DNA of 11,745 nt. Source: Hyphomicrobiales bacterium (GTDB taxonomy: Bacteria > Pseudomonadota > Alphaproteobacteria > Rhizobiales > Xanthobacteraceae). The notes under the pieces were generated by a model. It saw only the letters and a list, made by a program, of their open reading frames with translations, ran no database searches and was not told the origin of the DNA. The position numbers and the translations under genes are program-made. Positions 3,095-11,745 of the stretch are shown here, in pieces. Numbering within the stretch: the first letter of the stretch is position 1; every line of letters starts with the position of its first letter. The stretch spans positions 4,655-16,399 of the forward strand of contig JACQDO010000492.1 in NCBI GenBank assembly GCA_016201085.1. The letters are read 5' to 3'.

Positions 3095-3174
3095 AATAGC
3101 CGGTCAGCGCCCCCTCTCAAGTTCACAGCCGGTCCGCATCAAGCGGCCCGGTACTTTTAGGGAAGGTGGCGACC

Positions 3175-3450
3175 ATGGCTCCAGCACCCAGTCAATCCAA
3201 TACCGATGAGCACTGGAAGAAAACAACGAGGTTGATGTTCATCCATCTCGGTGTGTGGTTCTTCTTCGGTTACGTCATCCACATGTTCGTCAACCAACTC
3301 AACGCCATTAAGATTCCGATCTTGGGCTTCCCGCTCGGCTTCTACATGGCCGCACAGGGCTCGCTGATCGTGTTCGTGGTCATGCTGTTCATGTTTGCGC
3401 GGCAGCAAGACAAGATCGACCGCGAATTCGGCATGGCCGAAGACGACTGA
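3175..3450 (+). CDS. DUF4212 protein, small subunit of sodium/substrate symporter
   Basis: A 91-residue membrane protein of the DUF4212 (symporter small subunit) family. A charged N-terminus (DEHWKKTTRL) is followed by two membrane spans at about 20-40 and 52-74, then a charged tail RQQDKIDREFG. The family is nearly always encoded directly before a VC_2705-type sodium:solute symporter, as here with 13 bp between them, and is thought to assist it much as DUF485 proteins accompany ActP. The ATG at 3175 is preferred because GGAAGG ends 8 bases before it. A GTG at 3166 would add three residues but overlaps that ribosome binding site. It is the first gene of the rightward operon. Confidence 0.9.
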   Translation: MAPAPSQSNTDEHWKKTTRLMFIHLGVWFFFGYVIHMFVNQLNAIKIPILGFPLGFYMAAQGSLIVFVVMLFMFARQQDKIDREFGMAEDD

Positions 3451-3463
3451 GGGGGACACAATC

Positions 3464-5440
3464 ATGACAACTCAAACCACTACCGGCTCAGATGCCTTTT
3501 ATAAACAGCTCGGCCGGATGTATGGCATGTACACCGGCGGCTTCGTCGCGTTCATCATTCTGCTCGCGATTCTCGAACAGGTCGGCGTGCCGAACAAGAT
3601 CCTCGGCTACCTGTTCGTCTTCTTCACCCTCGCGGTCTACGCCATCATCGGCGTCGCGACGCGGACGGCGCAGCTATCCGAGTATTATGTCGCCGGCCGG
3701 CGCGTGCCGGCCTTCTATAACGGCATGGCGACCGGCGCCGACTGGATGTCGGCGGCTTCGTTCGTCGGTATGGCGGGCACCCTGTTCCTGCTCGGCTATG
3801 ACGGCATCGCCTGGGTGCTCGGCTGGACCGGGGGCTTCGTGCTGGTGTCGATCCTGATCGGACCGTATCTGCGCAAGTTCGGCGCCTATACCGTGCCCGA
3901 CTTCATGGCGTTCCGCTTCGGCGGCAACTTCGCGCGCTTCATCGCGGTGATCGTTCTGGTGTGCTGCTCCTTCACTTATGTGACGGCGCAGATCTACGGC
4001 ACCGGCCTGATCGCCTCGCGCTTCCTCGGCATGCAGTTCGAGGTCGCGGTGTTCGCCGGTCTCGTCGGCATTCTGCTGTGCGCGATGCTCGGCGGCATGC
4101 GGGCGGTGACCTGGACGCAGATCGCCCAGTACATCGTGCTGATCGTGGCCTATCTGACGCCGATCGTGATCCTGTCCACCAAGCATTACGGAATTCCGAT
4201 ACCGGAACTCACCTACGGAACCGCGATCGCGGAAATCACCGCGCGTGAGGGCCAGATGTTGACGAGTGGCCTGGCGACGGCGGCGACCCTCAAGCCGCAT
4301 ATCCAGCCGTTCATCAATTACAGCCCGCTTAACTTCTTCGGCATCATCTTCTGTATGATGGTCGGCACGGCGTCACTGCCGCACATCCTGATGCGTTATT
4401 TCACCACGCCAAGCGTGCGTGAGGCGCGGCAGTCGGTGGCGTGGTCGTTGCTGTTCATCTTCCTGCTGTACTTCTCGGCGCCGGCCTATGCGGCGTTCTC
4501 GAAGCTGGAAGTCTACACCAACATCATCGGCAGAGATCTGACGCAGGTTAGACCCTGGCTGTTTAGTTGGGGCGAACTGGGCCTGATCCAGATCTGCGGC
4601 AAGAATGCCGCCAGCATCGATGCGATCGTGGCCGCCTGTAAAGCCATCGCCGGTCATCCCGGTGTGGTGCGGCTGCAGGACTTCGTGATCAATACGGATG
4701 TGATCGTGCTCTCTACCCCGGAGATCGCGGGCCTTCCCTATGTGATCTCGGGTCTGGTGGCCGCGGGCGGTCTGGCGGCGGCGCTTTCCACCGCCGATGG
4801 CCTGCTGCTGGCCATCGCCAACGCACTCAGCCACGACATCTATTACAAGATGCTCGATCCCAATGCGCCGACCATCCGCCGGCTCACCGTGGCTCGCGTG
4901 CTCTTGTTCTTCGTCGCCGTGGCTTCCGCTTCGCTCGCTGCGACCAAACCGGGCGACATCCTGGCGATGGTGGGCTGGGCATTCTCGCTTGCCATGGCCG
5001 GCAACTTCCCGGCGCTCATCATGGGCGTCTGGTGGAAGCGGACCACGGCGACGGGTGCCGTTGCCGGTATGATCGCCGGCTTCGGGCTCTGCCTGTTCTA
5101 TCTCGTCTGCAGCCGGTACTTCCCCGGCTACGGCGTGAAGTACTTCGGCATGACCTCGCTGCTGAACCCGCTCTCGGGCGCGCCGCTGGTCGACATCGCC
5201 AAGGCCATGGCGCTACCGAATGCCATGGAAGTGATGCCGACGCTCGCCCATCCGATGGCCAACAAAGTCGGCTGGTTCGACCTCAACAACATCAACTGCG
5301 GATTGCTGGGCATGCCGCTCGGCTTCCTGGTGATCTACGTGGTGAGCCTTATGGGCAAGGAGCCGTCGAAGGAAATGCAGGCCTACGTCGACGAGATCCG
5401 CAAGCCGCGTGGGCGAACGGTGCTCGAGGAAAAGACCTGA
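3464..5440 (+). CDS. Sodium:solute symporter, acetate/organic-acid type (ActP-like, VC_2705 subfamily)
   Basis: A 658-residue polytopic inner-membrane transporter of the SLC5/SSF family, about 13 membrane spans. Family marks include SEYYVAGRRVP and MATGADWMSAASFVGMAG near the N-terminus, LGGMRAVTWTQIAQYIVL in the middle, and GLAAALSTADGLLLAIANAL followed by ALSHDIYYKML. The protein is longer than classical ActP (about 550), which is typical of the subfamily partnered with DUF4212. It is expected to import acetate or a related short-chain carboxylate with Na+; the exact substrate cannot be read from sequence. GAGGGGGA precedes the ATG at 3464 with good spacing, so earlier in-frame starts inside DUF4212 are rejected. 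The gene ends 23 bp before a strong intrinsic terminator. The symbol actP is withheld because substrate is unproven. Confidence 0.94.
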   Translation: MTTQTTTGSDAFYKQLGRMYGMYTGGFVAFIILLAILEQVGVPNKILGYLFVFFTLAVYAIIGVATRTAQLSEYYVAGRRVPAFYNGMATGADWMSAASFVGMAGTLFLLGYDGIAWVLGWTGGFVLVSILIGPYLRKFGAYTVPDFMAFRFGGNFARFIAVIVLVCCSFTYVTAQIYGTGLIASRFLGMQFEVAVFAGLVGILLCAMLGGMRAVTWTQIAQYIVLIVAYLTPIVILSTKHYGIPIPELTYGTAIAEITAREGQMLTSGLATAATLKPHIQPFINYSPLNFFGIIFCMMVGTASLPHILMRYFTTPSVREARQSVAWSLLFIFLLYFSAPAYAAFSKLEVYTNIIGRDLTQVRPWLFSWGELGLIQICGKNAASIDAIVAACKAIAGHPGVVRLQDFVINTDVIVLSTPEIAGLPYVISGLVAAGGLAAALSTADGLLLAIANALSHDIYYKMLDPNAPTIRRLTVARVLLFFVAVASASLAATKPGDILAMVGWAFSLAMAGNFPALIMGVWWKRTTATGAVAGMIAGFGLCLFYLVCSRYFPGYGVKYFGMTSLLNPLSGAPLVDIAKAMALPNAMEVMPTLAHPMANKVGWFDLNNINCGLLGMPLGFLVIYVVSLMGKEPSKEMQAYVDEIRKPRGRTVLEEKT

Positions 5441-5493: not shown

Positions 5494-5550
5494 CGGTTGC
5501 CGAAGCAGCCGGCAGCGGCCATTGTGCGGCCGCACGAGGATTTGCCTATT

Positions 5551-5856
5551 GTGACCGCTGGTTCGTTCCTCAGTTATTGGTACTTCCATCTGCCGAACTT
5601 CGTTCTGGCGGCGCTGATGTACACGCTACTGGGTCGTGTCATTCTCGGGCTGTTCGTCGATCCCGACTCGCCGAATTACATCTGGCGATTTTTTTGCCGG
5701 TTCACCGATCCGGTCGTTGCCGCCGTTGCCCTGGTGACGCCGAAAGCGGCGGTACCGGTCGTGCTTTGGCTGTTCGGCTTCGTCTGGCTGTTCTGGCTGC
5801 GCGTGGCGGTGCTCTATCTGTTCCTCTCGATGGGAGCAGTCCCGCAGGGGAACTGA
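5551..5856 (+). CDS. Small integral membrane protein, YggT-like
   Basis: About 101 residues with two hydrophobic hairpins: VLAALMYTLLGRVILGLF and, after the soluble turn RFFCRFTDPVVAAV, a C-terminal span rich in W and L (PVVLWLFGFVWLFWLRVAV). The layout of a membrane span, an (R/F)-TDPV motif and a second span resembles the YggT family, small membrane proteins of uncertain role. The match is by eye only. The GTG at 5551 is chosen because GAGGA sits 10 bases upstream. A GTG at 5524 and a TTG at 5497 are also in frame, but the latter touches the terminator. The next gene starts 7 bp after its stop, so the two are probably co-transcribed. Confidence 0.75.
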   Translation: MTAGSFLSYWYFHLPNFVLAALMYTLLGRVILGLFVDPDSPNYIWRFFCRFTDPVVAAVALVTPKAAVPVVLWLFGFVWLFWLRVAVLYLFLSMGAVPQGN

Positions 5857-5863
5857 ACGCGCC

Positions 5864-6190
5864 ATGGAACGAAATTTCTACTTCATCGGTATCGCGTTCT
5901 TCGGGATGGTCAACGGCCTGTTCAACCAGGTGGCGCTGTTGTTCGCCTTGATCCATGTGCAGGTGCTGGCGCCATCGCTGCTGTTCGGCAGCACCTCGCT
6001 CACCTTGATGTTCTCCTCACTGATGGTCTCGACCGCGACGATCGTTCTCGCCGGCATACCAGCCGCCATCTATGAACGGGTCATCGGCGCCAAGGACGAT
6101 TCAACCGTGACATCGCTTTGGATCTGGTTGGCTGGCACTGCGATCCTGACGCTGCCGGCAATCGGTGGTTTTCTTCGCATTGGCCTGTAA
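5864..6190 (+). CDS. Small integral membrane protein, unknown function
   Basis: A 108-residue, almost wholly hydrophobic protein. There are three predicted membrane spans at about 5-33, 38-65 and 84-105, with a short charged loop (YERVIGAKDDS) between the second and third. I do not recognise the family. The start ATG at 5864 has AGGGGA about 12 bases upstream, at the end of the preceding gene. Tight spacing to the YggT-like gene suggests one transcript and perhaps a shared membrane complex, possibly linked to the transporter upstream (inference from position only). Confidence 0.8.
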   Translation: MERNFYFIGIAFFGMVNGLFNQVALLFALIHVQVLAPSLLFGSTSLTLMFSSLMVSTATIVLAGIPAAIYERVIGAKDDSTVTSLWIWLAGTAILTLPAIGGFLRIGL

Positions 6191-6346
6191 GCGGCGGGTT
6201 GTCCGCGTTCAAGCTTTCGTCATCGCTGGCCGACCGGCTTGAGGACGTCACCGGGAGCATCTAACCTGTTTGTCGCTGACCGGGTCATGTTTTCGATTCG
6301 TGTGTAAGCCTGCAGGGCGGGCGCACAAGGGATCAGACGGTTGATC

Positions 6347-6715
6347 ATGGAAGACATCCGCCGGATCGCCTACGAGACGGTGCTGCGCGCGTGCGGATTC
6401 GGCTCGCTCGCCATCTTCTGCGTCATGATCGGCATGTCGTTCGAACCGCGTCTGGCGTTTCAAGCCGGCGGTTTCTTGACCTTGCTGATGACGGTCATCC
6501 TCATCCTGAAAGCCTACGAAGCGCGCAGGAAGGATCATCGCCACACCGAGTTGTGGCTCTATCTGCCCAAGGAGCGCCGGCCGGCGAAAGTCGATGCGCA
6601 GTGGGCGGTCTCAACGGCGATGCGCGAAACCTATTTCCAGTTCGCCCGCTGGACGGCGATCATTTCCATCGTGATGTGGATCATCGCGTTGTTTTTTTCG
6701 CTCATTGGGCTGTAA
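6347..6715 (+). CDS. Small integral membrane protein, unknown function
   Basis: A 122-residue protein with hydrophobic segments at about 18-32, 40-57 and 100-121. A basic and acidic cytoplasmic-looking loop (KAYEARRKDHRHTELW, then LPKERRPAKVDAQ) lies between the second and third. I do not recognise a family. The ATG at 6347 is preferred for its codon; an in-frame TTG at 6341 has better spacing (8 bases) to AAGGGA at 6327-6332, so the start is uncertain by two codons. It is separated from the previous gene by 156 bp in which I see no clear terminator or promoter. Confidence 0.8.
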   Translation: MEDIRRIAYETVLRACGFGSLAIFCVMIGMSFEPRLAFQAGGFLTLLMTVILILKAYEARRKDHRHTELWLYLPKERRPAKVDAQWAVSTAMRETYFQFARWTAIISIVMWIIALFFSLIGL

Positions 6716-7029
6716 CCCGGCAACCGAAAATGATCCGTCGGTTATTCAAGGCATTCGCTCTCGGCGTCTACGACTTTAGTAGCTATCGCTTAGGCTGGAT
6801 CGCGCGCGTGACATCGGCTGACCTTTAGTCCGGCAGTCGCCGCCGATATTGCCGCGATTAGCGGGCATTATTCGACGCTGGGCGCCATTTGATACGTATC
6901 AATGGCCGTTACGGCGATAACGGATAGTCCATCGCTGGCGGGTTCGGGGCGCGAGGGAACTTTCGGCGGTGTCGCCGCTGTTGACAGGCTGCGGCCCTTA
7001 CCGTCGCTGGAAGGGAATTGACGACGCTG
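6716..7029 (+). other. Intergenic region upstream of the sensor kinase operon
   Basis: This is the longest gene-free stretch (314 bp). It holds the FNR/FixK-type palindrome at 6889-6902 and weak -10-like hexamers GATAAC (6916-6921) and GATAGT (6923-6928). A 32-codon open frame (6730-6828) lacks a ribosome binding site. I see no strong intrinsic terminator for the preceding gene; CGGCG-GTGT-CGCCG near 6964-6977 is only a 5-bp stem with no T-run. Confidence 0.6.
6889..6902. promoter_or_regulatory. FNR/FixK-type binding site (perfect TTGAT-N4-ATCAA)
   Basis: TTGATACGTATCAA is a perfect 14-bp palindrome and matches the consensus TTGAT-N4-ATCAA of FNR, Anr and FixK regulators exactly. GCCA (6884-6887) and TGGC (6903-6906) extend the symmetry, with one extra T at 6888. 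A -10-like hexamer GATAGT (6923-6928) lies about 30 bp from the centre of the box. That is close to the class II activator layout, in which the box centre sits near -41.5. The site is 128 bp upstream of the kinase ATG, with no other gene between, so the kinase-regulator operon is the likely target, induced at low oxygen. Confidence 0.78.
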
Positions 7030-8664
7030 ATGCAGCCGCGAACCCTTAAGTTCAAGGTCGTTCTTTACCTGTCGATCGCGCTGTCGGTGGCCATGCTGTT
7101 GTTCACCGGGCTGGTCGCCTGGTTCCTGTACACCGAAATCCTCGGCAAGGTGTCCGATCACGTCAGCCAGCTTTCCGAGGTGATCACCAAGAGCACCCGC
7201 TTCGCCATGCTGCAGAACCAGCCGGCCTATGTCGACCGGATCATCCATGACGTGGCCGATCAGGAAAAAATCGATCGCATCAGAATCCTCAGCCGGGACG
7301 GAAAGATTATCCATTCGACCTACGCGTCCGAAATAGGGCAGTGGGTGGACCGCAAAGCCGAGGCCTGTTCGCATTGCCATCAGAGCGATCAGCCGCTCCA
7401 GCAAGTGCCCAAGGGCCAGCGGACCTGGACGTTCAAGGGACCGAATGGCCAGTCGCTGCTCGGCAGCATGGAGGTCATCCGCAACGAACCGTCCTGCTAC
7501 AACGCCGCCTGCCATCAGCACTCCAAGGAGACGTCCGTCCTCGGCGTGCTCGACATCATCTATTCGCTCGACGAATTCGACCGCAAGCTGCGTGCCAGCA
7601 CGCTCGGGATCGCCGGCGTGTCCCTGGCCTTCATCGTGATCGCGTCGCTGTCGGTCGGCTTCTTCGTGCACCGTCTGGTCTATCTGCCGCTGCGCGACCT
7701 CGAAAGCGGCGCGCGCCGCCTGTCCGCCGGCAACCTCGACCAGCCGATCCCGGTGCGCGGCAGCGACGAATTCGGCAAGCTTGCCACCTCGTTCAATGTC
7801 ATGACCGACGCCTTGCGCAATTCGCGCGCGGAGCTGCGCGACTGGGCCTATACGCTCGAGCAGAAGGTGGAAAAACGAACGCAGGAGCTGCGCCGCGCGC
7901 AGGCCGAAACCGTGCGCGGGGAGAAGCTTGCTTCGGTCGGATTGCTGGCCTCGGGCGTCGCCCATGAACTGAACAATCCGCTGACCGGCATTCTCACGTT
8001 CTCGCATCTGTTGCGGCAGAAAATGCCGGACAAGAGCCCGGATGCCGAGGATATGGACCTGGTGATCCGCGAAACCAAGCGTTGCGCCGCGATCATCAAG
8101 CGGCTCTTGGATTTTGCCCGGGAAAAACATCCGGAAAAGAAATTCAACGACATCAATCAGGTGATCGACGACACTGTACGCATCGTCGAGCGGCCCGCGC
8201 ATTTGCGCGATATCGAGATCAACCTGAACCTCGACCGCACGCTGCCGCCGATCTGGATCGACGCCGATCAGATCAAACAGGTGGTCATGAACATGGTCGT
8301 CAATGCCCAGCATGCGGTGGAGGAGAAGGGCAGCATCGCCATCTCGACCCGCCGCGCCATGCAATCGCCGCCCGGCACGCAGGGCGCCGAGCCGGTGCCG
8401 ATGGTGGAGATCGCGATTGCCGACACCGGCTGCGGCATTCCGGAAAAGAATTTGCGGCGGATTTTCGATCCGTTTTTCACCTCCAAGGACGTGGGCAAGG
8501 GTACCGGATTGGGATTGTCGGTCAGTCACGGTATCGTGGAGGCCCATGGCGGCATGATCGATGTGCAGAGCCAAGTCGGCGAGGGCTCGACCTTCCGGGT
8601 CTTACTGCCATTGACCCCGCCCGCCGCCGCGATTGAGAATAAAGTGAGCGAGGCCGTTCAATGA
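7030..8664 (+). CDS. Membrane sensor histidine kinase with periplasmic haem-c-type motifs
   Basis: A 544-residue sensor. TM1 (about 7-33) is followed by a periplasmic domain (34-190), TM2 (about 192-216), HAMP (217-270), a coiled linker, HisKA with ASGVAHELNNP (phospho-acceptor H312), and HATPase_c. The HATPase has an N box (N425), DTGCGI (465-470), FDPFFTSK (479-486) and GKGTGLGL (489-496). The sensor region looks like a single-Cache-type fold (DRIRILSRDGKIIHS). It carries CSHCH (113-117), a canonical CXXCH haem-c site, and CYNAACH (156-162), a CX4CH spacing known in some multihaem cytochromes. One or two covalent haems exposed to the periplasm are therefore plausible. The ATG at 7030 is 13 bases from AAGGGA; a TTG at 7018 is also in frame, so the start is uncertain by four codons. 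It overlaps the regulator gene by ATGA. Confidence 0.93.
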   Translation: MQPRTLKFKVVLYLSIALSVAMLLFTGLVAWFLYTEILGKVSDHVSQLSEVITKSTRFAMLQNQPAYVDRIIHDVADQEKIDRIRILSRDGKIIHSTYASEIGQWVDRKAEACSHCHQSDQPLQQVPKGQRTWTFKGPNGQSLLGSMEVIRNEPSCYNAACHQHSKETSVLGVLDIIYSLDEFDRKLRASTLGIAGVSLAFIVIASLSVGFFVHRLVYLPLRDLESGARRLSAGNLDQPIPVRGSDEFGKLATSFNVMTDALRNSRAELRDWAYTLEQKVEKRTQELRRAQAETVRGEKLASVGLLASGVAHELNNPLTGILTFSHLLRQKMPDKSPDAEDMDLVIRETKRCAAIIKRLLDFAREKHPEKKFNDINQVIDDTVRIVERPAHLRDIEINLNLDRTLPPIWIDADQIKQVVMNMVVNAQHAVEEKGSIAISTRRAMQSPPGTQGAEPVPMVEIAIADTGCGIPEKNLRRIFDPFFTSKDVGKGTGLGLSVSHGIVEAHGGMIDVQSQVGEGSTFRVLLPLTPPAAAIENKVSEAVQ

Positions 8665-10094
8665 GCGCGCGAATTCTTGTCGTCGACGACGAGGACATCG
8701 TCATCAAGAGCTGCATGCGTATTCTCGATGGTGGCGGCTACCAGATCGAGTCCGCGCATGACGGCCGCGAGGCGCTGCAAAAGGTCGAGGACGGTTCTTA
8801 CGACATCATGATCGTCGATATCATGATGCCTAACATCGGCGGCCTGGAAGTGCTGCGCCGGGTCAAGGAGGCCTATCCCAACGTCGACGTCATCATGATC
8901 ACCGGCCTGTCGCAGATCGACACCGCGGTGCAAGCGATGAAGCTCGGCGCCTTCGACTATATCTCCAAGCCATTCGAGCCGGACGAGCTCAAGCTGGTGG
9001 TGCAGCGCGCGCTGGAGCGGCGGCAACTATTGCAGGAAAACCTCAGCCTGAAGAGCGAGGTCTCGTCGAAATACCGTTTCGAGAACATCATCGGTTCGAG
9101 CCCGCAGATGCAGGCGGTCTACCGGCTGGTCGCGCAGTGCGCGCCGACCAATTCCACCGTCCTGCTGACCGGCGAAAGCGGCACCGGCAAGGAAGTGATC
9201 GCGCGCGCCATCCACTACAACAGCCTGCGCAAGGACAAGCCGTTTTGTGCCGTCGACTGCAACTCGCTCAGCGAAAATCTGCTGGAAAGCGAGTTGTTCG
9301 GCCATGCCAAGGGCGCTTTCACCGGCGCCATCGCCAACAAGAAGGGCATGTTCGAGGTCGCCGGCAGTGGCAGCCTGTTTCTCGACGAGATCGGCAACTT
9401 CTCCCTTGGCATCCAGGCCAAGATGCTGCGCGTCTTGCAGGAGCGGGAATACCGGCCGGTCGGCGATACCCGCACGCTCACCGCCAATTTCCGGCTGATC
9501 ACCGCCACCAACAAGGATCTCAAGGCCATGGTGGCGGCCGGCACGTTCCGCGACGACCTGTTCTATCGGATCAATATCTTCCCCATTCACGTTCCGGCGC
9601 TGCGCGAACGCAAGGACGACATCCCGGCGCTCGCCTACCACTTCCTCAAGGTATTCAGCGCCGACCTCGGCAAGAAGGTCACCGATATTTCCGAAGGCGC
9701 GATCAGCGCGCTGGTCAACTACGACTGGCCGGGCAATGTGCGCGAACTCGAAAACGCCATGCATCGGGCGGCGATCCTGACCGGCGATCATGTGATCCGG
9801 CAGGCCCATTTGGTCACCATCATCGATCCCGCGCATGCGCATGCCGATTTGGCGGTGCCGCGCACCGGCGATGAACTCAAGCGCGTCAAGAAGGCGGCGC
9901 GCGAGAAGTCGGTGGAGGAGATCGAGAAGCAGTTCGTGCTCGAGGCGCTCAAGCGCAACGAGTGGAACGTCACCAAGAGCGCCGAGGACACCGGCATGCA
10001 GCGGCCGAATTTCCAGGCGCTGATGAAGAAATACACCATCCGGGTGCGCGACACCCAGCACGATGGCGGCGACGAGGCTCCCGACGCCTCCTGA
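8661..10094 (+). CDS. Sigma-54-dependent response regulator, NtrC type
   Basis: A 477-residue regulator with the full NtrC layout. The receiver domain (1-120) has acidic D9/D10, phospho-acceptor D53, T81 and K103. The AAA+ sigma-54 activation domain (about 140-375) has Walker A GESGTGKE (171-178), the sigma-54-contacting loop GAFTGA (218-223), Walker B LFLDEIG (239-245) and the YDWPGNVREL segment (354-363). A Fis-type helix-turn-helix lies near the C-terminus (about 420-458, WNVTKSAEDTGMQRPNFQAL). All key residues are intact, so it should open sigma-54 promoters when phosphorylated by the kinase. Its ATG overlaps the kinase stop (ATGA), implying translational coupling. Its stop directly abuts the stop of the convergent cytochrome b gene. 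No sigma-54 promoter is visible inside the window; the cytochrome operon promoter beyond the right edge is the obvious candidate. Confidence 0.95.
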   Translation: MSARILVVDDEDIVIKSCMRILDGGGYQIESAHDGREALQKVEDGSYDIMIVDIMMPNIGGLEVLRRVKEAYPNVDVIMITGLSQIDTAVQAMKLGAFDYISKPFEPDELKLVVQRALERRQLLQENLSLKSEVSSKYRFENIIGSSPQMQAVYRLVAQCAPTNSTVLLTGESGTGKEVIARAIHYNSLRKDKPFCAVDCNSLSENLLESELFGHAKGAFTGAIANKKGMFEVAGSGSLFLDEIGNFSLGIQAKMLRVLQEREYRPVGDTRTLTANFRLITATNKDLKAMVAAGTFRDDLFYRINIFPIHVPALRERKDDIPALAYHFLKVFSADLGKKVTDISEGAISALVNYDWPGNVRELENAMHRAAILTGDHVIRQAHLVTIIDPAHAHADLAVPRTGDELKRVKKAAREKSVEEIEKQFVLEALKRNEWNVTKSAEDTGMQRPNFQALMKKYTIRVRDTQHDGGDEAPDAS

Positions 10095-10733
10095 TCAAGC
10101 CTTCGCTTCCGGCTCGTCCTCGAGGTCCTCGTAACCGGTGATCATCGCCTTGTAGTGCGTCGTGCGGGTATGGCCGAGCGAGCCCAGATAGACGTGCACG
10201 AAAAGATAGAACACGAAGACGATAAAGATCAGCACGTGAACCGTGTCGATCACCCGCACGCCGCCGAAGAAATCGACTTGCGCCGAGAATCGCTTCACAT
10301 CCCATAGCAGGATGCCGGTATAAATCTGCACTGGCAGGCACAGCATCATGATGATCTGGTAGATCATGCTCTGCAATGGATTGAATTTATTGTAGATGCT
10401 GACCTGAAACGGATTGGGGTCGCCGCGGAATACGCCGAAGGCGTAGTAATAGATCTGCCGCATGCTGCCGATGAAGTGCTTCTTCGGATTCAGCTCCGAA
10501 TGATAGGCCCTGATCCGATCGGAAGTCAGGTAAAACACCAGCCAGACGCAGAAATTGGCGATCAGCACGAAGCCGACCGCGTTGTGCACGTTGACAGCCA
10601 TCTTGAACGAAATAACGTCGATCAGTCCGACATAACGGATTTGTATCCCCGTCAGGATCATGAGGATGAAACCGACGGCATTGGTCCAGTGCCAGATCCT
10701 GACCGGCAGCGGGTGGATATAGAGTCTTGTCAT
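10095..10733 (-). CDS. Cytochrome b561-type membrane subunit (hydrogenase/thiosulfate reductase b-subunit family)
   Basis: A 212-residue, four-helix membrane cytochrome b. The hallmark N-terminus is HPLPVRIWHWTNAVGF. Candidate haem ligands are H15, H50 (NVHNAVGF), H166 (TVHVLIF) and H180 (LFVHVYLG), enough for two b haems. FNPLQSMIYQ (117-126) matches the conserved segment of Ni/Fe-hydrogenase and thiosulfate-reductase b subunits. Such subunits pass electrons between the quinone pool and a periplasmic partner, here most likely the multihaem cytochrome encoded 10 bp upstream. The ATG at 10733 is chosen because AGGAA lies 7 bases before it. A longer version from 10787 would overlap the upstream gene by 44 bp and add an Arg/Ala-rich extension, so it is rejected. 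Direction of electron flow is not known. Confidence 0.92.
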   Translation of the reverse strand: MTRLYIHPLPVRIWHWTNAVGFILMILTGIQIRYVGLIDVISFKMAVNVHNAVGFVLIANFCVWLVFYLTSDRIRAYHSELNPKKHFIGSMRQIYYYAFGVFRGDPNPFQVSIYNKFNPLQSMIYQIIMMLCLPVQIYTGILLWDVKRFSAQVDFFGGVRVIDTVHVLIFIVFVFYLFVHVYLGSLGHTRTTHYKAMITGYEDLEDEPEAKA

Positions 10734-10743
10734 GGTTTGGTTC

Positions 10744-11745
10744 CTATGCCGCCTTCGGGCCATCGCCGCCTTGCGGGCCGGCGCCATGGCCGTTGTGCGG
10801 GTGGTAATAGCCGAAGCGCTTGAAAAACCAGCCTAAGAACACGTGCCCAACGGCGATGCCAGCGCCGCCGAGAATGGCCAGGATCAGCAGGATATCGAGC
10901 AGGATGATGCGGGTGCCGCCGATCGCGTAGAAGCCGCGCACCGAGTCGAGCGAGATCGGCGAACTCAGTACATCGGCACTGGCGCCATAGCCCACGCGCC
11001 GTCCGTCCGGTCCGACCAGCGAGATTGTCACGCTCTCGAACGCCTCCGAGCCCTGGCGATGACAGATGTGGCAGTCGCTAATTGCCTTGCTCTTGTCGGC
11101 GAGCTGATGGGCCTGTGGACCCGTGCTGACCTTCAGGCGGCCACGCACGATTGTCCTGCCGGCCAAGTCGTCGCGATTGAACGTTTGCAGCAGGTTCCAC
11201 AGCGTCAGCGCGTCGATGCCCTTGCCGCCGGACCGGGTGCTGGCATCGAACAGTGGCACGCCGATTTGTTCGGTTCCTCTAGCGTGCGCCTGGCCATCCA
11301 TCACCATGAGGAGCATAAGATCGACTTTGCGGTGTGCCGTTGGTGCATGGCAGGCCGGGCAGGACACCGCCTCGAAATGCAAGCCCGCGTTGGGCAGCCA
11401 CACCTTGTGCTTTTCGAGCACGCCAGCGTGGCAGCCGGAGCATGCCGCCGACGGGCCTTCGCCGAGCGAAGTGGGTTTTACCTCATGTGCGTTGTGGCAG
11501 CCCGAGCAGACGGGTGCATAACTATCGGAAGAACTGTTCCGCGATTTTCCATGTACGCTGCCGAGATAGGCCGTGAAAATGTCCTTGTGGCAATTCTGGC
11601 AGGGCGTCTCATCGATTTTCGTGCCAGCGCCTTTGATCACCGCATGCGGGTTATGACAATCCGCGCAGATCGGTGCCGCCGGATTGCCTTGGCGCGCCAG
11701 CGCGGCATGAATGCTGCGGTTCCATTGCTCGACCTTGTCGGCATG
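10744..11745 (-). CDS. Multihaem cytochrome c with C-terminal membrane anchor, 5' end outside window
   Basis: The reading frame stays open to the right edge, so the visible 333 residues lack the true N-terminus and any signal peptide. Six CXXCH sites are visible, in edge-based numbering: CADCH (27-31), CQNCH (49-53), CSGCH (80-84), CSGCH (102-106), CPACH (129-133) and CHICH (225-229). More are likely upstream. HG and AHEV after the haem sites resemble the cytochrome c3/tetrahaem-like family. A haem-free stretch of about 90 residues (134-224) precedes the last site. Near the end a single hydrophobic helix (IILLDILLILAILGGAGIAV) is followed by a His/Gly-rich tail (YYHPHNGHGAG). It should be a periplasmic, membrane-anchored electron carrier working with the cytochrome b encoded next. 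A GTG at 11640 is not the start, because haem motif CADCH lies before it in frame. Confidence 0.9.
   Translation of the reverse strand, partial: HADKVEQWNRSIHAALARQGNPAAPICADCHNPHAVIKGAGTKIDETPCQNCHKDIFTAYLGSVHGKSRNSSSDSYAPVCSGCHNAHEVKPTSLGEGPSAACSGCHAGVLEKHKVWLPNAGLHFEAVSCPACHAPTAHRKVDLMLLMVMDGQAHARGTEQIGVPLFDASTRSGGKGIDALTLWNLLQTFNRDDLAGRTIVRGRLKVSTGPQAHQLADKSKAISDCHICHRQGSEAFESVTISLVGPDGRRVGYGASADVLSSPISLDSVRGFYAIGGTRIILLDILLILAILGGAGIAVGHVFLGWFFKRFGYYHPHNGHGAGPQGGDGPKAA

Follow-up and report, generated by a model that had tools for sequence, protein, structure and literature searches.

The nearest described counterparts of the protein analysed here are GSU0935 and GSU0582 of Geobacter sulfurreducens (sensor structures 3b42 and 3b47; PMC8396549, in the passages used here), which are likewise HAMP-linked membrane receptors with a Cache/PAS-like fold. 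In the crystal, Met60 of GSU0935 is seen as the distal haem ligand, and for both proteins the same review proposes that oxidation frees the Met and activates the sensor (PMC8396549, in part). According to these passages, one or two CX2-4CH motifs occur in each of 12 signal transducers of G. sulfurreducens, and GSU0599 has two of them (PMC8396549). Haem-c Cache domains occur in kinases and in other receptors, as described in parts of a 2026 preprint (PMC12889525). The sCache_heme/DUF3365/Tll0287-like domains (PF11845) treated there also carry covalent haem c on an insertion of the Cache fold, and some are fused to kinases; they have one CXXCH per domain in the passages used, whereas the protein studied here has two motifs, and no passage on two-haem domains was found in the excerpted main text (PMC12889525). 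Haem-c sensor domains, those of kinases included, and two-motif proteins are already known (PMC8396549, PMC3831638, both in excerpt).

Here we analyse a stretch of 11,745 nucleotides (the window), in which a sensor histidine kinase with two such motifs is followed by an NtrC-family response regulator and by cytochrome genes. Our analysis suggests, with a probability of about 65%, a di-haem-c Cache kinase whose haems sense redox and which acts through the NtrC-type regulator on a sigma-54 cytochrome operon.

Kinase gene, sensor domain and conservation of the two motifs

Alignment of homologues identifies the ATG at 7030, and not the TTG at 7018, as the start of the kinase gene (Table 1). The protein belongs to the histidine kinases of two-component systems by its HisKA domain with the phospho-accepting His, its HATPase_c domain and the adjoining response regulator. 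No Pfam family exceeded its cut-off over the sensor part, which the predicted structure assigns to the Cache superfamily by a long N-terminal helix and a Cache beta-sheet fold. The two motifs had been read from the window's translation in an earlier note on this DNA, and their positions, with 43 residues from start to start, are correct. From the hydrophobic stretches on either side of the sensor domain, an extracytoplasmic position is predicted for the two motifs.

Table 1. Features of the window; positions are counted from its first nucleotide
Feature	Position	Strand	Basis
Sensor histidine kinase, 544 aa: TM1, Cache-like sensor with two haem-c motifs, TM2, HAMP, HisKA, HATPase_c	7030..8664	+	ORF, Pfam, homologues
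First hydrophobic (transmembrane) helix, residues ~10-35	7057..7134	+	Kyte-Doolittle windows; long helix 6-61 in model
Extracytoplasmic single Cache-type sensor domain, residues ~36-187	7135..7590	+	
Met60, N-terminal helix, candidate distal haem ligand	7207..7209	+	300/301 homologues; weak 3b42 alignment
CSHCH, CX2CH haem-c motif (site 1), beta2-beta3 loop, residues 113-117	7366..7380	+	301/301 homologues
CYNAACH, CX4CH haem-c motif (site 2), beta4-beta5 insertion, residues 156-162	7495..7515	+	301/301 homologues; 3b42 CQSCH alignment
His164, candidate distal ligand of the other haem (inferred role)	7519..7521	+	296/301 homologues
Second transmembrane helix, residues ~190-212	7597..7665	+	Hydrophobicity, model
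HAMP domain	7684..7818	+	PF00672
HisKA; HELNNP box from residue 312 (nt 7963)	7942..8127	+	PF00512
HATPase_c	8260..8616	+	PF02518
NtrC-family response regulator: receiver, sigma-54 AAA+ with GAFTGA, Fis-type HTH	8661..10094	+	Pfam, motif
Cytochrome b561-type membrane subunit	10095..10787	-	PF01292; conserved in relatives
Multihaem c-type cytochrome, C-terminal hydrophobic stretch; incomplete, runs off the contig end	10744..11745	-	

Homologous sensor domains were collected from 240 proteins and 61 loci. The proteins comprised the best 120 of 1683 matches to residues 1-200 of the kinase and the best 120 of 3388 matches to its Acidobacteriota relative L059. The loci were obtained by scanning genome contigs with six peptide patterns, two of which overlap the haem motifs; this resulted in 63 loci, nearly all from metagenome assemblies, and L062 and L063 were excluded from the alignment as too short. 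Within this set, which is ranked by similarity and may retain near-duplicates, all 301 aligned domains show exactly a CX2CH followed by a CX4CH, at identities to the window domain (residues 33-186) of 33-100% and below 50% in 128 cases. Eleven positions between residues 33 and 186 never vary (G91, E111, C113, C116, H117, C156, C161, H162, L171, G172 and D175), and six of them are the Cys and His of the motifs. The spacers vary, with at least 40 different X2 pairs and 66 X4 variants among the 301 homologues, no other Cys is conserved, and additional Cys residues occur in ten. Fixed Cys and His with variable spacers is the pattern of haem-c motifs, and their presence in every aligned homologue rules out chance motifs. 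The homologue alignment proposed in the earlier note as a check on the Cys and His has thus been carried out, with no loss among the 301.

Relation to solved haem-c sensors and to single-motif relatives

A Foldseek search with the predicted model placed 3b42_B at rank 6 (E 1e-4) but with an rmsd of 12 Å, and the motif loops of this haem-free model are of low confidence (pLDDT about 57-60). When a profile of 62 di-motif domains was searched against the PDB, the first match was 3b42 (GSU0935), at a weak E of 0.082; an unrelated replication factor came next at 0.091, and the match is thus not separated from chance. In this weak alignment chain Met26 stands opposite Met60, and CQSCH opposite the CX4CH site. 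Cys140 of GSU0935 is chain residue 106, so that by offset arithmetic chain Met26 is Met60 of GSU0935. By alignment the window domain possesses the features of the GSU0935/GSU0582 type, namely a C-Xn-CH motif at the beta4-beta5 insertion and a Met in the N-terminal helix; the 3b42 alignment is weak and one supporting alignment took in nine chosen sequences only. A distant single-motif relative, L077, matches 3b47 (5.1e-5) and 3b42 (0.0014) in the PDB. The window domain scores 14.2 bits, against a cut-off of 27, with PF21563, which we take to be the family of GSU0935/GSU0582-type haem-c sensor domains, and falls outside it; among the best 120 of 3388 matches, seven of the 120 two-motif relatives carry a precomputed PF21563 assignment. 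Membership in PF11845 (sCache_heme/Tll0287-like) was rejected by profile, as the window domain gave no match at E up to 10; the relative L049 scores 7.2 bits against a cut-off of 24.1.

A search of 200 sampled genomes of the phylum gave a match in 20 of them, the window's own genome included. Nineteen of the 23 distant matches outside that genome were examined (four were left out), and each of the 19 proteins has one CXXCH near its N-terminal part, aligned to the CX4CH site. At the position of the CX2CH none of the 19 shows a CXXCH, L075 having a CXXC without His there; the Met60 position, in the 17 proteins where the alignment covers it, is always Met. As the CXXCH of these distant relatives and of 3b42 aligns to the CX4CH site, the latter looks like the older haem-c site with a lengthened spacer, and the CX2CH like a later addition; this order is read from the alignment and not from a tree. 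The di-motif kinase suggests in this way how a haem site joined an existing haem-c sensor fold.

A Pfam scan of seven distant relatives identified one MCP (chemoreceptor), five GGDEF proteins and one kinase. The single-CXXCH receptors L066, L067, L070, L071, L076, L077 and L081, with MCP, GGDEF and kinase outputs, are probably haem-c sensors too; most of these seven have no sensor family over cut-off, while L066 and L077 reach PF21563.

Regulator, cytochrome genes and the facing operon

The response regulator is a member of the NtrC family of sigma-54 regulators, with a receiver, a Sigma54_activat domain containing GAFTGA and a Fis-type HTH. A regulator-like ORF directly follows the kinase in 59 of the 63 loci (56 of them at 80 bits or more); in the remaining four the contig stops with or just past the kinase ORF. 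The b561 and multihaem cytochrome genes of the window face the regulator gene, and a full-length relative of the multihaem cytochrome in L003 has nine CXXCH. Counterparts of the window's cytochrome b and multihaem genes were present in 33 of the 38 loci with at least 4.5 kb downstream and absent in five. Where at least 6.5 kb could be followed (33 loci), 23 loci contain two stand-alone receiver genes, RecDomB and RecDomA, and eight a second kinase gene, of which the six examined copies with a sensor part show CYACH plus CX4CH. Genes for MtrA/PioA lie beside nine of the 63 loci and genes for MtrB/PioB beside six (families named by TIGR03508 and TIGR03509 in L033), a fused multihaem-b cytochrome occurs at 13 and Hmc-type genes at eight.

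Some of these neighbours deserve separate mention. The second kinase of L033 (13261-15183, minus strand) has the same two-motif sensor and a Cys-rich, zinc-ribbon-like insert in its ATPase region; second two-motif kinases (CYACH plus CX4CH) were also seen in L007, L012, L022, L034 and L048. RecDomA of L055 (13076-13735, minus strand) looks like a stand-alone receiver with a hydrophobic C-terminal stretch and may be anchored in the membrane.

In the relatives the facing operon consists of RecDomB, RecDomA, the nonahaem cytochrome and the b-type cytochrome. A predicted sigma-54 site (matching the 12-position consensus at 10 or more positions, GG and GC being required) heads the RecDomB-RecDomA-cytochrome operon at 24 of 25 RecDomB loci, the 25th scoring 9, compared with a background of 3.2% of random windows of equal size. 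Upstream of it a palindrome, TGTAYA-N7-TRTACA with up to two mismatches, is present in 20 of 24 regions and absent from four, where mononucleotide shuffles predict 0.8; it lies at -105 to -130 from the -24 element and at some loci also at -185 to -208. With at most one mismatch, 18 of the 22 palindromes found across the loci precede RecDomB. Because the palindrome had first been spotted by eye in the very sequences in which it was counted, a whole-genome test of the exact composite of palindrome and promoter was made.

The genome sets for this and the other genome-wide comparisons comprised 49 kinase genomes, or 50 with the window's own, after exclusion of 13 of the 63 loci (L024, L031, L043, L044, L047, L051, L052, L054, L056 and L060-L063). 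Eleven composite sites were found in 10 of the 50 kinase genomes and none in the 200 sampled phylum genomes, the window's own genome, which lacks the site, being counted in both sets; 40 of the 50 kinase genomes have no exact composite, and a reversed control had no match. All 11 sites lie at the facing operon or its cytochrome part, ten of them before RecDomB. The composite of L100 precedes a short ORF with weak similarity to RecDomA and then a multihaem gene, and three composites (L096, L098 and L100) come from outside the set of loci that had yielded the palindrome. The earlier note had linked the kinase to cytochromes by gene adjacency; that link now extends to a conserved sigma-54 promoter and palindromes heading the neighbouring cytochrome operon in relatives.

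The cytochrome gene is cut by the end of the contig, so that the window does not reach the promoter predicted as its regulator's target, and in the window's own assembly neither an orthologue of RecDomB nor a composite site was found. Sigma-54 sites within the window at 4437 (plus strand) and 7597 (minus strand) lie inside genes and were taken as chance; the best match to the palindrome, with three mismatches at 3515, lies inside the symporter gene and was likewise rejected. Further sites were seen in other genomes. At L004:13811 (minus strand), in close relatives of the window, two palindromes upstream suggest that the multihaem cytochrome may have a second sigma-54/palindrome promoter; a palindrome alone stands at L005:13911, and two more (L064:15063 and 15140) are distant from any annotated target gene.

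Genes for cytochrome c maturation were detected in all 50 kinase genomes, as CcmE in 42 (the window's own included) and as PF01578 assembly proteins in the other eight; they are a necessary condition for haem c only. Of the 49 kinase genomes, 30 have an MtrB/PioB match over cut-off; of the 200 genomes sampled from the phylum, 15 do, one of them being the window's own. This enrichment (Fisher p 1.5e-15 with the window's own genome dropped from the 200) is uncorrected for lineage, and the other 19 kinase genomes have no MtrB/PioB over cut-off. In the window's own genome an MtrB/PioB porin gene (L088) is located at a contig end (G000:C434:13056-15167, minus strand). A decahaem gene adjoins the porin gene in the relatives G202 and G203, so the partner gene of the window genome may be lost in an assembly gap.

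The remaining genes of the window include a DUF4212 protein and a VC_2705-family sodium/solute symporter (3166-5437) and, on the opposite strand to the symporter, a long ORF (89-2224) and a further one (2249-2887) that to the eye resemble a nuclease/CBS nucleotidyltransferase pair. Three small ORFs at 5497-6715 have no family over cut-off and probably encode membrane proteins. None of the 63 loci (up to about 8 kb on each side, many shorter) showed SSF, DUF4212 or any of the three small ORFs. A role of the symporter cluster was rejected, as it was not detected beside the kinase in other genomes and is probably unrelated.

Proposed circuit, alternatives and known systems

The domain, the motifs, the homology and the regulator type are supported at the sequence level, as are, in relatives only, the promoter and the palindromes; haem attachment, the redox signal, the direction of the response and binding of the regulator to the palindromes are what we infer. 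In the proposed circuit the periplasmic single-Cache domain would hold two covalent haems c, one at the CX4CH, the haem position of GSU0935/GSU0582, and an additional one at the CX2CH. Electrons would pass between these haems and the periplasmic cytochrome pool or quinol-linked cytochromes, and a change in redox state would alter the ligation of iron, with Met60, on the helix coming from TM1, being released or bound. The movement of the ligand would pass via TM2 and HAMP to the kinase, and the phosphorylated NtrC-type regulator would bind the TGTAYA-N7-TRTACA palindromes and activate the sigma-54 promoter. The operon so activated (two receivers, the nonahaem cytochrome c and the b-type cytochrome) would be an inner-membrane electron-transfer module. 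The result is a concrete predicted circuit that names ligand candidates in the sensor and joins it, by way of a regulator, to a predicted operator and promoter.

The main rival is a gas sensor of the haem-c Cache kind, in which NO (or CO) would bind at one haem while the second holds or relays electrons. In excerpts of the 2026 preprint a signalling haem-c Cache protein is reported to have the properties of an NO sensor and not those of a redox sensor, and a HAMP-linked one to release NO slowly (PMC12889525); GSU0582 and GSU0935 bind NO and CO and lose Met60 in doing so (PMC8396549, in part). The domains of the preprint, however, have one CXXCH each in the passages used (PMC12889525), the window kinase has no match to PF11845, and the conserved neighbours of the kinase are multihaem electron-transfer genes. 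We consider a gas sensor unlikely. Somewhat less probable still is a kinase that binds haem c and serves another regulon, the adjoining sigma-54 operon being under a different regulator, such as a partner of the two small receivers. The assignment of the regulator to its site does rest on neighbourhood and co-occurrence, some loci have another kinase carrying both motifs, and most kinase genomes have no exact composite; against this stands the composite itself, which is confined in our test to kinase genomes and always lies at the facing operon or its cytochrome part. A zinc or iron-sulphur site, or disulphides, in place of haem could be formed by four Cys and two His, and motifs by themselves do not prove haem; this reading is very improbable and was rejected as the likeliest one on two grounds, the variation of the spacers in sequence and, at site 2, in length (2 or 4) and the CXXCH of distant relatives at site 2, in weak to moderate alignment with a crystallographic haem-c site; the complete C-Xn-C-H order at each site and the predicted extracytoplasmic position of the Cys also argue against it.

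The redox-sensing di-haem kinase remains our preferred reading. The covalent haem suggested by the earlier note has gained support from the 301 homologues, from the maturation genes and from a similarity to crystallised haem-c sensors that is weak or runs via a distant relative. A much wider reading, in which di-haem Cache kinases are a widespread two-centre redox gauge wired into the periplasmic cytochrome network, is one we hold tentatively and would sooner doubt than accept. If it were true, the kinase could gauge, through two haems of different potential, the electron pressure at the quinone-to-cytochrome junction, and the sigma-54 regulator would set the level of a cytochrome b/nonahaem c module feeding extracellular electron transfer or iron oxidation, in short a feedback controller of electron wiring. 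To our knowledge, little is understood of how extracellular electron transfer is regulated in bacteria.

Among known systems, GSU0591, GSU0599, Adeh_2011 and Adeh_3383 (the latter two from Anaeromyxobacter) also have two reported c-type haem motifs, and GSU0599 is listed as a two-component protein like the window kinase (PMC8396549, PMC3831638, in excerpt); both likenesses are by description. No functional study of these four was found in the literature searched. The original paper on them is reportedly Londer 2006. The neighbour of GSU0599 may be the cbcBA regulator BccR, and GSU0599 may be an orthologue of the window kinase; no passage to this effect was found in the literature searched. The earlier note knew of no characterised kinase of exactly this form; the kind does have precedents, in the Geobacter proteins and the haem-c Cache kinases, but in the literature searched no characterised kinase with two covalent haems c was found. 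DcrA of Desulfovibrio vulgaris is a c-type-haem receptor that probably senses oxygen or redox; unlike the window kinase it is a chemotaxis transducer.

The genes which the window's regulator is predicted to control are of the kind that encodes CbcL and CbcBA of Geobacter, inner-membrane bc-type cytochromes at the quinone pool (partly after PMC12307469, in excerpt). The likeness is one of architecture only, and the c and b parts of the window are separate genes. The iron-responsive cluster ircABCD of Gallionellaceae differs from the window in gene content, by description (PMC12442390, in excerpt). In GSU0935 and GSU0582, by alignment, the haem motif lies at the place of the window's CX4CH and the distal Met at Met60. 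They are chemoreceptors with one CXXCH, one haem and no CX2CH at site 1, whereas the window protein is a histidine kinase with a CX4CH at site 2.
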